DNA of 64,000 nucleotides, taken from Chryseobacterium candidae (GTDB lineage: Bacteria; Bacteroidota; Bacteroidia; Flavobacteriales; Weeksellaceae). Made by a program: the position numbers and the translations under genes. Under the pieces are notes generated by a model that saw nothing but the letters and a program-made list of their open reading frames with translations, was not told the origin of the DNA and searched no databases. The stretch is taken from contig NZ_SDLV01000058.1 of the NCBI RefSeq assembly GCF_004916905.1, positions 1-64,000 of the forward strand, written 5' to 3'. Positions within the stretch are counted from its first letter, which is position 1; each line of letters opens with the position of its first letter. This document shows, one piece after another, positions 39,024 through 43,013 of the stretch.

Positions 39024-39056
39024 AAACCTCAACAGCTGTCTTGTTGGGGTTTTTAT
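39024..39056 (+). terminator. Terminator between convergent genes
   Basis: AAACCTCAACA and TGTTGGGGTTT form a 10-11 bp stem, with one G-T pair, around GCTGTCT, followed by a T run. Confidence 0.75.
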
Positions 39057-40006
39057 TGATGTCTTTCTGTCATTTTCAGAAGCAGTTCTTTTAATCTTGT
39101 ACGAAGACTTTCCGGTTCAAGAACCGTTGCATAATCTGCAAAAGTAACAAGCCAGCGGGGAAATCCGTCATTGATCCATTCTGTTTCAAAAGTGAGTTCC
39201 ATCCCATGTTCGGTTTCTACTTCTTCTATCAATCCGTAATATTTTTTAGAATTTACCAGATGAGACATTATTTTTTTATCTACTAAAAGTCTGGCTCTGA
39301 CTTTATTTCCATTGGCTTTTTTACGGTAATCATTCACCTGCCCATATTCCTGCAGGAAAGGATTCTGTGTTTTTGAAATTTCCAGAATTCTGTCGATACG
39401 AAACTGTCTGAAATCTTTTCTCAAGGTACAGTATGCCATGATGTACCAAATATTAAATTCGAAAAACATCCCGACCGTTTCAATAGTTCTGTTGTTTACT
39501 CTCTCATCTACGGTCTTATATCTGATATTGAGCTGGGTTTTCTCCGCAATACTTTCCAGGATAATAGGAATTACGTTTTTCAGTGAATCTCCGGAATCTG
39601 TATGAAAACTGAAAACATCAATCTGCTTCTCAATATTTTTAATCAGATTTTTATCAGAATATTTCAGTACCGAACGTACTTTTTCCATAGCAGCCTGATA
39701 ATGGCTTCCTAAGCTTTGGTGGGAAAATTTCTGCATCAGCTTTTCTGCGGTAATGAAACTTAACACTTCTTCTTTGGTAAACATAATCGGAGGAAGTTTG
39801 TAGCCTTCCATCAGAGAATAGCCGTTCCCTGCTTCGCCCACAATAGGAATCCCTGCATTTTCCAGAGTTTTTACATCACGGTAAATGGTTCTGATGCTAA
39901 CATCGAATTTTTCAGCGAGATCCTGAGCCCGAACAACAGGTTTCGACTGTAATTGGGTAAGAATGGCAGTTACCCGATCGAGTTTTTTAAGATAGTGGTC
40001 GTTCAT
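39053..40006 (-). CDS. YafY-type WYL-domain transcriptional regulator
   Basis: This 317-residue protein has an N-terminal HTH_11 winged helix (residues about 7-60, RAQDLAEKFDVSIRTIYRDV). A WYL domain (about 140-225, IRYKTVDERV and MFFEFNIWYIMAYCTLRKDF) and a WCX C-terminal extension (about 235-317) follow. WYL regulators sense ligands such as nucleotides or DNA ends and repress or activate nearby genes. It faces the DinB gene, the most likely target by context. A TAGTTTTG box lies just before the start. Confidence 0.88.
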   Translation of the reverse strand: MNDHYLKKLDRVTAILTQLQSKPVVRAQDLAEKFDVSIRTIYRDVKTLENAGIPIVGEAGNGYSLMEGYKLPPIMFTKEEVLSFITAEKLMQKFSHQSLGSHYQAAMEKVRSVLKYSDKNLIKNIEKQIDVFSFHTDSGDSLKNVIPIILESIAEKTQLNIRYKTVDERVNNRTIETVGMFFEFNIWYIMAYCTLRKDFRQFRIDRILEISKTQNPFLQEYGQVNDYRKKANGNKVRARLLVDKKIMSHLVNSKKYYGLIEEVETEHGMELTFETEWINDGFPRWLVTFADYATVLEPESLRTRLKELLLKMTERHQ

Positions 40007-40062: not shown

Positions 40063-41865
40063 TTATTTGAAGGTATTAACGAGTTTATCAAGATTCAGAC
40101 TGCGGGCGGAGGCATCAAAAATTTCACGGTAAGTTCCTTCTTTATTATAGAGTTCATCATGAGTTCCATTTTCAACCACTTTTCCTTTTTTCATCACATA
40201 AATGATATCTGAATCCAGAATCTGTGATAGTGAATGGGAAATGATAATCACCGTTCTTCCTTCTTTTATGGCATCCAGAGAGTTTTTGATCTGTTCTGTG
40301 GCAATGGCATCCAGACTGGCTGTCGGTTCATCCAGAAAGATGATTGGAGGATTTTTAAGGAACAGTCTTGCAATGGCAATTCTCTGCTGCTGTCCTCCTG
40401 AAAGCTGAGTGGCATCATGCTGGTATTTTTCAGGAAGATCCATAATCTGATCATGCAGATAAGCTTTTTTTGCGGCCTCCTGAATTTCTTCAAAACTGGC
40501 ATTCATATCGCCGTAACGGATATTATCTTCTATACTTCCCTGAAAGATATGATTTCTCTGAAGTACAAGCCCCAGATCACTTCTCAGAAAAGTATTATCA
40601 AATTCATTAAGGTTTACTCCGTCCAGAAGGATTTCTCCAGAATCCGGAAGATAAAATTTACATAAAAGATTGATCACCGTTGATTTTCCCGCACCGCTCA
40701 ATCCTACCAAAGCTGTCGTCTTTCCGTTTTCAATTTTCATGGAAACATTATGTAAAGCTTTCGTACCATTGGGATAAGTGAAATCAACATTTTTCAATTC
40801 AAAAGTTCCTTTGATTTCTTTTTCTACAAAGTTTCCGTTGGATTCTGTTTCATGATCTGCATTCAGAATATCAAAGTACCCTTCGGCATAAATCATGGCA
40901 TCATTCATATCATCATAAATTCTGTGAAGCTGTCGGATAGGCGCTGAGACATTGTTAAAAAGCATAATATGAAGCATGATAGCACCGATAGTCATCTGCT
41001 GATCAAGCACCAGATAAACAGTTAAAAGGATAATCAAAACAACTCCAAATTGTTCAATGAACGTTTTTAAACCATCATAAATAAAATTGGTTCTCCTTGT
41101 AATCATCTGACTTTCCATCAGCTCCATCTGAAGGTCATATTGTTTTTTCCCTTCAAATTTTTCACGGACAAAGCTTTTAATAACCATAATAGAATTAATC
41201 AGGTTCAAGAGTCCTGATGTCTTCTTTTCTCTTTGATTTCTAAGCTGGCGTCTTACTCCGCCCAGTTTTTTGGCCTGCAGGGAGCTGATGTAGAAATAGA
41301 TCGGAACAATAATCGTAGAAACCAGTCCCACATACACATTCTGCATATACATAATGATGAGGGCAATAATGGCATTGGAAAAAAGAGGAAGGATATCAAT
41401 AAAAAAGTTCTGAACCAATCTTGTTAAACTTTCTATTCCACGATCGATTCTGATCTGTAATTTTCCGGATTCATGGTTTTCATCATTAAAATAAGCAACT
41501 CTGTAGGTTAAAATCTTATCAATGGCTGATTGCGCCAGCACGGAGCTTACATTAATCCTGATTTTTTCGCCATAAAATTTCTGCCCGAAGTTGATGAAGA
41601 TATTCAACAGCTCTTTTCCCAGTAAAATAATGGAAATGATAACGAGAATATGAATTCCCTCTGACATCGGATGTGGAAGATGCGTAAGTTTAGTGACTTC
41701 ATCCACCGTGTATTTCAGAACAATCGGGTTCACCTGTGCTGCGAGAGCTCCCAGAAAAGTAAGAAACAAAGTTCCGTAAATCATGGGTCTGTAAGGTCTG
41801 ATGAAGGGGACAAGCTGTTTATAGATTCCGAATAAGGTAACGGTTCTGTTAAAAGGTTTAGCCAT
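40063..41865 (-). CDS. ABC exporter, fused permease and ATPase
   Basis: From the ATG at 41865 (MAKPFNRTV) the protein has 600 residues. A type I exporter transmembrane domain of six helices (about 20-310) is followed by the nucleotide-binding domain. That domain has Walker A GLSGAGKST (388-396), the signature SGGQQQR (488-494) and Walker B IIFLDEP (508-514). It resembles MsbA/lipid or multidrug exporters that act as homodimers; the substrate cannot be fixed. The alternative start at 41874 or 41901 adds up to 12 residues. Confidence 0.88.
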   Translation of the reverse strand: MAKPFNRTVTLFGIYKQLVPFIRPYRPMIYGTLFLTFLGALAAQVNPIVLKYTVDEVTKLTHLPHPMSEGIHILVIISIILLGKELLNIFINFGQKFYGEKIRINVSSVLAQSAIDKILTYRVAYFNDENHESGKLQIRIDRGIESLTRLVQNFFIDILPLFSNAIIALIIMYMQNVYVGLVSTIIVPIYFYISSLQAKKLGGVRRQLRNQREKKTSGLLNLINSIMVIKSFVREKFEGKKQYDLQMELMESQMITRRTNFIYDGLKTFIEQFGVVLIILLTVYLVLDQQMTIGAIMLHIMLFNNVSAPIRQLHRIYDDMNDAMIYAEGYFDILNADHETESNGNFVEKEIKGTFELKNVDFTYPNGTKALHNVSMKIENGKTTALVGLSGAGKSTVINLLCKFYLPDSGEILLDGVNLNEFDNTFLRSDLGLVLQRNHIFQGSIEDNIRYGDMNASFEEIQEAAKKAYLHDQIMDLPEKYQHDATQLSGGQQQRIAIARLFLKNPPIIFLDEPTASLDAIATEQIKNSLDAIKEGRTVIIISHSLSQILDSDIIYVMKKGKVVENGTHDELYNKEGTYREIFDASARSLNLDKLVNTFK

Positions 41866-41951
41866 AAAAATCATTTTAAATGAAAAACGTACCGCTTTCA
41901 AAAGAAAAAGGTACGTTTTATTATCATGTTCAGCAAGTGAATGCTTATATT

Positions 41952-43013
41952 TTATCCTTCAAATACATAAGTTGTAAGGTAGTGCAGCTCTTTTCTGCTG
42001 GCTTCTTTAGACTCCGCTTCTGCCTGTTCTAAAGAGTATTGGGAATTAATTTCCTTTTTCTGCAAAACAAATGAGTTGTTGGCATTCTTATCCACTACCT
42101 CATTAAAAATATGCTCAATTTCAGAATTTGCTAAGGTAGCAAAGCTGACCTCTTCAAAGCCATGTAATAATCTAAGATCATCAAACTGACTGAAATTTTC
42201 ATTGACAAATGCCTGCAGCTGTGCTTTGGAATCAAAGTTACCAGCCCAGATATTATAAGCGTATTTCTTCTTTTTAGGTTTATCTAAAATACTTTGATAC
42301 ACGAAGTTTTCACCCAGATAGGCTTCTCTTACCTGCGGATCGTTTGCAAGATCTTCCGGAAGTCCTTCTTTCAGGATCTTTCCTTCAAACATAATATAGG
42401 TTTTGTTCGTAATCGCCAGGGTTTGCTGTACGTTGTGGTCGGTAATCAGAATTCCGATATTTTTATCAACAAGACTTCTTACGATTTTCTGAATATCTTC
42501 TACAGCAATCGGGTCTACCCCTGCGAAAGGCTCATCCAGAAGAATGAAGTTCGGGCTTGTGGCAAGACAGCGTGCAATTTCTGTTCTACGTCTTTCTCCC
42601 CCGGAAAGAAGATCTCCTCTGTTTTTACGAACGTGCTGTAAAGAAAACTCTTCAATCAGTTCATCACATTTGATCTGCTGTTCACGTTTTGAAAGCTTGG
42701 TCAGCTGTAATACGCCCATAATATTTTCCTCTACAGACAGTTTTCTGAAAACCGAAGCTTCCTGAGCCAGATACCCGATTCCTTTTTGAGCACGTCTGTA
42801 CATGGCATCGGTAGTAATCTCCTGCTTGTCCAGAAAAATTTTTCCTGAAGTAGGCTTAACCAACCCTACAATCATATAAAACGATGTGGTTTTTCCTGCT
42901 CCGTTCGGACCCAGCAAACCAACAATTTCTCCCTGTTGAACCTGTACAGAAACGCCTTTTACAACTTTTTTAGGACCGTATTCCTTGATTAAGTTTTCTC
43001 CTCGTAAAATCAT
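41952..43013 (-). CDS. lptB: LptB ATPase with extra C-terminal domain
   Basis: Residues 1-240 of this 353-residue protein are a full LptB: Walker A GPNGAGKT (35-42), signature LSGGE (136-140), Walker B FILLDEP (156-162), switch His193 and the LptB end AYLGENF. LptB powers lipopolysaccharide transport from the inner membrane with LptFG. Residues 245-353 are additional: after a basic linker KPKKKK comes YNIWAGNFDSKAQLQAFV and an acidic, helix-rich tail. A canonical LptB is about 241 residues. No frameshift separates the parts. Two overlapping promoter boxes lie immediately upstream. Confidence 0.9.
   Translation of the reverse strand: MILRGENLIKEYGPKKVVKGVSVQVQQGEIVGLLGPNGAGKTTSFYMIVGLVKPTSGKIFLDKQEITTDAMYRRAQKGIGYLAQEASVFRKLSVEENIMGVLQLTKLSKREQQIKCDELIEEFSLQHVRKNRGDLLSGGERRRTEIARCLATSPNFILLDEPFAGVDPIAVEDIQKIVRSLVDKNIGILITDHNVQQTLAITNKTYIMFEGKILKEGLPEDLANDPQVREAYLGENFVYQSILDKPKKKKYAYNIWAGNFDSKAQLQAFVNENFSQFDDLRLLHGFEEVSFATLANSEIEHIFNEVVDKNANNSFVLQKKEINSQYSLEQAEAESKEASRKELHYLTTYVFEG

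Follow-up and report, generated by a model that had tools for sequence, protein, structure and literature searches.

An extended LptB with a predicted C-terminal alpha/beta domain in Chryseobacterium and related Weeksellaceae

LptB is the ATPase of lipopolysaccharide (LPS) transport, and its gene in Chryseobacterium candidae raises the question of what further residues are doing at its C-terminus, how they were acquired and on what they might act. The sequence-only reading of the window (the whole stretch of DNA analysed, 64,000 nucleotides of contig NZ_SDLV01000058.1) had claimed that an LptB normally ending at about residue 241 is prolonged here by 109 residues, 245-353. Both parts of this claim were borne out: L241 is reported among the last residues of E. 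coli LptB in PMC6703430, twenty of the unextended relatives, when read directly, had lengths of 242-258 aa, and the extension was recovered by the open reading frame, the family match and the comparison with relatives described below.

The extended lptB gene and its distribution

The gene was read as a single open frame from an ATG (Table 1), with codon 245 starting at position 42281, exactly where it had been placed before. Residues 3-238 matched the LptB family model TIGR04406 with an E-value of 6.3e-108 and a score of 359.6 bits (cut-off 240), and the narrower E. coli LptB model NF008144 was missed at 297.2 bits (381 required). The C-terminal YLGENF loop, residues 232-237, was invariant across the 46 rows of an alignment of LptB sequences. 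The protein is therefore like E. coli-type LptB (TIGR04406) in its above-cut-off match and in keeping this loop, and unlike it in the 109 residues that follow the loop. Because this gene gave the only TIGR04406 match above the cut-off in the genome (the runner-up scored 158 bits), and because two LptF/LptG proteins are encoded in the same genome, we infer that the extended lptB is the working LptB copy.

Table 1. Features of the extended lptB gene, in positions of the window
Feature	Position	Strand	Basis
lptB, 353 aa, LPS-transport ATPase with C-terminal extra domain	41952..43013	-	Whole ORF with stop; TIGR04406
ATPase core, residues 1-240, aligning with unextended LptB	42294..43013	-	Unextended matches end at about 240-250
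Residues 238-252, junction (V-Y-Q) followed by the basic linker with KPKKKK	42258..42302	-	Linker counts; junction comparison
Extra domain, predicted folded, residues 253-353 plus stop	41952..42257	-	Conservation; model of the extension alone

Conservation across Weeksellaceae was assessed in a sample of 148 genomes, 143 of which had an LptB match. The match continued in frame through the extension in 60 of these 143 genomes, so that the extension is not universal in the family; the 60 comprised all 20 sampled Chryseobacterium, 39 genomes from 13 other genera and a single odd genome (G093) of a fifteenth, giving 14 extension-bearing genera besides the latter. In the other 83 genomes the match ended at about residue 240-250; where it went on, reaching residue 294 at the furthest, it either crossed stop codons or entered a short tail. 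A scan of contigs with the extension returned 154 relatives, of which the best 80 were taken; each was titled Chryseobacterium, and all 80 of these loci encoded a 353-residue LptB with an intact extension, the identity of the extension reaching 98%. Phylum-wide, LptB was found in 244 of 247 genomes, and the extension was present in the four that are Chryseobacterium; among the matches listed, the alignments of the other rows ended at about residue 240, or at residue 283 at most across stops. A search with the extension profile through the order matched 37 of 296 genomes, each of them Weeksellaceae, and three further weak matches (E 0.0047-0.0068) were taken as chance.

Copies of the extension outside lptB were also sought. 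No free-standing copy was found in 74 of the 83 unextended Weeksellaceae genomes except for four weak matches (E 0.019-0.037) taken as chance, none was found in the five Weeksellaceae genomes lacking an LptB match, and the extended genome G093 was matched as expected in the same search. The extension had no match in plasmids or phages (tblastn, E up to 1) and no relative in viral contigs, and one Imm22-like protein likewise had no match in plasmids.

Two observations were made at the margins of this distribution. The extended lptB of G093 (L049 / L254) lies on a short contig, the five other sampled members of its genus are without the extension, and the assembly is fragmented with a listed contamination of 5%; the contig may be foreign. 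In another family (f18), the LptB of genome G432 (L191) has its own, different tail of about 123 residues, helical-looking by eye, and two further LptBs of that family (L190 and L202) have C-terminal tails of about 30 residues. LptB tails may have been gained more than once.

A tree was built from 70 LptB cores, and in it the 50 extended LptBs formed one group together with three short ones, with a support of 86/93 (not starred); L001, a copy of L003, was dropped from the tree and from the counts. The tree needs three changes, as expected for one gain and two losses, and a single gain of the extension followed by about two losses is the probable history. Because the LptB core is short and well conserved, the core tree is moderate evidence on this point.

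A comparison of the junction with the core strengthens this evidence. Residues 238-240 were V-Y-Q in 50 of 50 extended LptBs. The 16 unextended Weeksellaceae LptBs compared are unlike them, with R, T or H at position 238 (R in 14), F at 239 in 13 and E at 240 in 14; L071, which has a one-residue shift, and three genomes of presumed loss were kept out of the unextended side of this test. Positions 230 and 238 separated the 50 extended from the 16 unextended sequences fully; of the latter, 13 departed from the extended type at position 239 and 14 at position 240. Aligned by eye, positions 238 and 239 correspond to 240 and 241 of the E. coli protein. The three short LptBs of the group (L057, L061 and L063, in genomes G002, G017 and G015) also had V-Y-Q at 238-240, with the extended-type E at position 230 in two and A in one. 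These three genomes are small (1.7-2.2 Mb), and searches of their lptB loci and of the rest of their sequence revealed no trace of the domain. The three short V-Y-Q proteins look like domain losses, which suggests that the domain can be lost and is dispensable in some lineages.

Linker, predicted fold and selection

The linker between F237 and Y253 was 15 residues long in 50 of 50 extended LptBs and in 79 of the 80 named loci; the remaining locus (L180) has the same total length, and M replaces I255 in it, which placed it outside the search pattern. The fixed length suggests a set position of the domain rather than a loose tether. The net charge of the linker was +2 to +4 in 45 of the 50 sequences and 0 or +1 in five.

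The 50 extensions were aligned over 113 columns (alignment A1, in which column number plus 244 gives LptB numbering), with a mean column identity of 71%. Five columns were invariant (Y9, G14, F16, F47 and F59) and 26 more were near-invariant, the residues concerned including, in LptB numbering, Y253, I255, W256, G258, N259, F260, G285, F286, E287, F291, S297, E298, F303, D308, K309, N313, F315, Q318, K319, L343 and Y345.

A model of the extension alone, calculated with AlphaFold2 from alignment A1, had a pLDDT of 87.3 and a pTM of 0.77. The predicted order of elements is b-a-b-a-a-b-a-b, with strands at 250-258, 280-284, 314-322 and 343-352 and helices at 263-273, 286-295, 297-306 and 328-338. 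The extension is thus confidently predicted to be a compact alpha/beta domain; as to possible disorder, it was predicted folded and conserved residues are present. The acidic tail had been described in the sequence-only reading as helical, and the model agrees in placing a helix at 328-338, but as the chain ends in strand 343-352 the tail is not simply helical. A model of the full-length protein showed the same order of elements except at 288-296, which was non-helical with a pLDDT below 50. Its ATPase core was poorly predicted (mean pLDDT 62) and this model was left out of the placement of the domain on the LptB dimer; for that reason the placement is one that we infer.

The median dN/dS was 0.049 for the extension and 0.005 for the core, as calculated from the 27 of 903 pairs that fell inside the dS limits, with rows other than 353 aa left out. 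These values indicate that the extension is constrained by purifying selection and evolves faster than the core.

Foldseek, run with the model of the extension, gave no match at an E of 0.001 or less among solved or viral folds. The fold matches were weak and tied, and many were ferredoxin-like (ACT domains, ribosomal S6, Vibrio VC0424); ACT, S6 and similar folds stood at Z of about 5-6, and unrelated folds tied with them at Z up to 6.5. The MetN domain was absent among the 50 matches listed, which is uninformative on kinship. A sequence search of solved structures with the extension yielded no convincing match (best E 0.12).

A likely distant relation of the extension to Imm22

Imm22 (DUF4284, PF14112) is a proposed immunity family which, in PMC3482391, is linked to several toxin types and described as alpha + beta with a conserved W, Y and acidic residue. 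The start of the extension had been noted in the sequence-only reading as reminiscent of this family. PF14112 was indeed the commonest Pfam match of the extensions: at E up to 10 it was hit by 39 of the 50, with a best E of 4.5e-4. The extension of the lptB studied here, searched alone, matched it at 15.9 bits and E 0.023 over residues 11-108 (cut-off 27 bits). Ten divergent further extensions were searched, of which six matched PF14112 at 14.9-18.4 bits, over spans of only 22-34 residues at the start of the extension, and four had no match. The 27-bit Pfam cut-off was missed in all seven extensions for which bit scores were listed (14.9-18.4), and the extension is not a member of PF14112 by the Pfam rule.

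The profile of the extension was then compared using hhalign with 43 Imm22-like proteins from Chryseobacterium and other genera. L208 and L211 (no suitable frame) and L213, L219, L220 and L109 (partial, broken or below the cut-off) were left out of this set, and L223 and L224 were trimmed to their first 140 residues. The comparison gave 86.6% over 19 columns, a score owed to the IW-x-GNF stretch. Forcing the alignment across 100 columns lowered it to 78.9%, and with only seven Imm22-like proteins it was 79.2%. As controls, the reversed profile gave 0.1% and 199 of 200 column shuffles gave 5.5% or less, the remaining shuffle reaching 99.6% on seven columns, which was taken as a scoring artefact.

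However, searches within the C. candidae genome were blind in both directions. A PF14112 search at E up to 10 matched a free-standing protein and not the lptB extension, the extension used as a single query at E up to 10 matched itself alone, and the extension profile at E up to 0.01 matched lptB alone and not the Imm22-like protein. Since the genome searches missed the link both ways, it rests on the hmmscan of single members and on the profile-profile comparison, and a distant kinship of the extension and Imm22 is likely but not proven. The extension is like Imm22 in its weak match in most members, its hhalign score and its conserved W; it is unlike Imm22 in falling below the cut-off in the seven members with listed bit scores, in being fused to an ABC ATPase and in being clade-wide, and the free-standing Imm22-like proteins of Chryseobacterium exceed it in length by about 20-25 residues. 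Y253 is invariant, W256 and E287 are near-invariant and the model is alpha/beta, the match of the Y and the acid to the Imm22 positions being unsecured. Seven Imm22-like proteins searched by sequence against solved structures had no convincing match (best E 0.28).

Other leads were set aside. Pox_C4_C10 was matched by 12 of the 50 extensions (best E 0.0027) and was taken as chance, although for the lptB extension studied here it outranks PF14112 (0.0051 vs 0.023). Fourteen other Pfam families, SPOR among them, with one or two extensions each, and the NCBIfam lead BH0509 (0.0039) were likewise taken as chance.

The free-standing PF14112 protein of the same genome (L002, G000:C6:150901-151272, minus strand) lies, by reading, near a polA-like gene, and no toxin was recognised by reading in its 3.4 kb locus. 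A PF14112 match, in this or another gene, was present in 42 of at least 50 Chryseobacterium genomes. L223 and L224 (genomes G885 and G867) have PF14112-matching frames of 249 and 276 codons; L223 contains a second W-x-G motif further on and may be a tandem domain pair.

Possible roles of the domain

The position of the extension can be read against what is reported for other ABC ATPases. According to PMC6703430, the last residues of E. coli LptB contact the Walker A motif and the switch helix, with L241 touching the latter, and the essential Y234, L235, G236 and F239 are among them; LPS transport suffers when tags are placed at the C-terminus, with a severity set by the first added residue. 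From PMC7367683, C-terminal domains of other ABC ATPases are thought to favour or hinder the association of the ATPase subunits, the C-terminal domain of MetN is ferredoxin-like, and the C-terminal extension of MlaF forms a handshake tying the ATPase dimer together; the MetN domain is reported to bind methionine and to affect subunit association (PMC10710835). The C2 domain of MetN (in MetNI) is a candidate for a system that works alike, being a C-terminal alpha/beta domain on an ABC ATPase, although no such family was among the Pfam matches of the extension and methionine is not expected as a ligand here. MlaF-MlaB is alike in that the ABC ATPase, there too serving lipid transport, is prolonged at its C-terminus, and unlike in that MlaF adds about 25 mostly extended residues and a separate STAS protein, compared with a fold of about 100 residues here.

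The location of the extension right after a loop with residues essential in E. coli, the altered junction and the fixed linker, together with the MetN and MlaF precedents, led us to propose that the extension serves for control or docking and influences the LptB dimer via its C-terminal loop, a proposal to which we give about an even chance of being right. The domain would sit where the C-termini of the dimer emerge, directly after the YLGENF loop, and would govern how easily the dimer can close on ATP or open again. To this end its two copies might touch each other, or it might bind a cytoplasmic partner or ligand; LPS extraction would thereby be tuned from inside the cell. Given the likely distant kinship with Imm22 proteins, which are proposed toxin-binding immunity proteins, a protein partner is slightly favoured over a small ligand. 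The conserved polar residues of the domain were counted for control or docking. Against control were counted the dN/dS of the extension, which compared with that of the core would fit a purely accessory part, the absence of the domain from the three short V-Y-Q LptBs, the fold searches with no confident match and the poor ATPase core of the full-length model. It had been suggested in the sequence-only reading that a domain fused to LptB could regulate LPS export, which is plausible. A fuller account, in which an immunity-type fold was captured once in a Weeksellaceae ancestor and joined to the ATP-closure loop of LptB and now tunes LPS export to a cytoplasmic partner, is offered tentatively, as possible but not probable.

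The domain might instead contribute stability passively, as a prop for the dimer of LptB or for the C-terminal loop that has gained a structural use but senses nothing. The fixed linker, the altered junction and the rare loss fit such a structural add-on as well as they fit a switch, and the tail of MlaF is a precedent for dimer stabilisation (PMC7367683). However, the near-invariant polar residues E287, E298, D308, K309, N313, Q318 and K319 suggest an interface beyond packing, and the three short V-Y-Q LptBs manage without any such support; we regard a purely passive role as rather unlikely. It is less easy to see the basic linker and the domain as an anchor that keeps LptB close to the inner membrane, to LptF/LptG or to an enzyme of LPS synthesis and leaves ATP turnover unchanged. 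The positive net charge of the linker in 45 of the 50 sequences would suit this role, but the charge falls to 0 or +1 in the other five and a loose anchor would have no need of a fixed linker length, which makes an anchor improbable.

Immunity genes tend to be patchy. The idea that an Imm22-type protein was captured on LptB, where it neutralises a toxin or attacker and so guards an essential machine, therefore sits poorly with a domain that is present in 20 of 20 sampled Chryseobacterium and under purifying selection. The likely distant relation to PF14112, the free-standing PF14112 proteins of Chryseobacterium, one of them in the same genome, and the association of Imm22 with several toxin types (PMC3482391) speak for it. 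Nevertheless, the Pfam cut-off was missed wherever bit scores were listed, the free-standing copy L002 has, by reading, a polA-like gene for a neighbour and no toxin was recognised in its locus, and this alternative is held to be very improbable. Among the open reading frames adjoining lptB in the 64-kb window no toxin was recognised (by reading only). A stop read-through or chance open frame was rejected, as the same frame is found in 60 genomes and 80 named loci, with dN/dS far below 1 and a confidently predicted fold.

LptB itself is known, and so are C-terminal domains on ABC ATPases; for their combination here, a search for earlier reports found no description of this domain in the literature searched, which took in few subscription papers. 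The extended LptB is a natural experiment on the timing of the LptB cycle and its domain a place to seek a cytoplasmic regulator of LPS export: this clade carries a whole domain, with an altered junction, exactly where E. coli LptB tolerates additions badly (PMC6703430). The extension-bearing species include some that occur in human infections, such as C. indologenes.

The genes surrounding lptB were assigned by reading. Two genes follow it downstream in the same orientation, one for an ABC exporter (40063-41901) and one for a WYL-type regulator (39053-40006). Forty loci were compared, after 25-31% rows (cross-matches to lptB) had been dropped and with two loci (L049 and L053) holding fewer than 600 bases downstream. 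Of the 20 extended loci, 7 had the exporter gene no more than 138 bases after lptB, as did 3 of the 20 unextended ones; a further extended locus had it 1.8 kb downstream. The domain is thus not tied to the exporter gene. On the upstream side, lptB is preceded by a small TM2-like gene, which reads on the plus strand, and by hemB.
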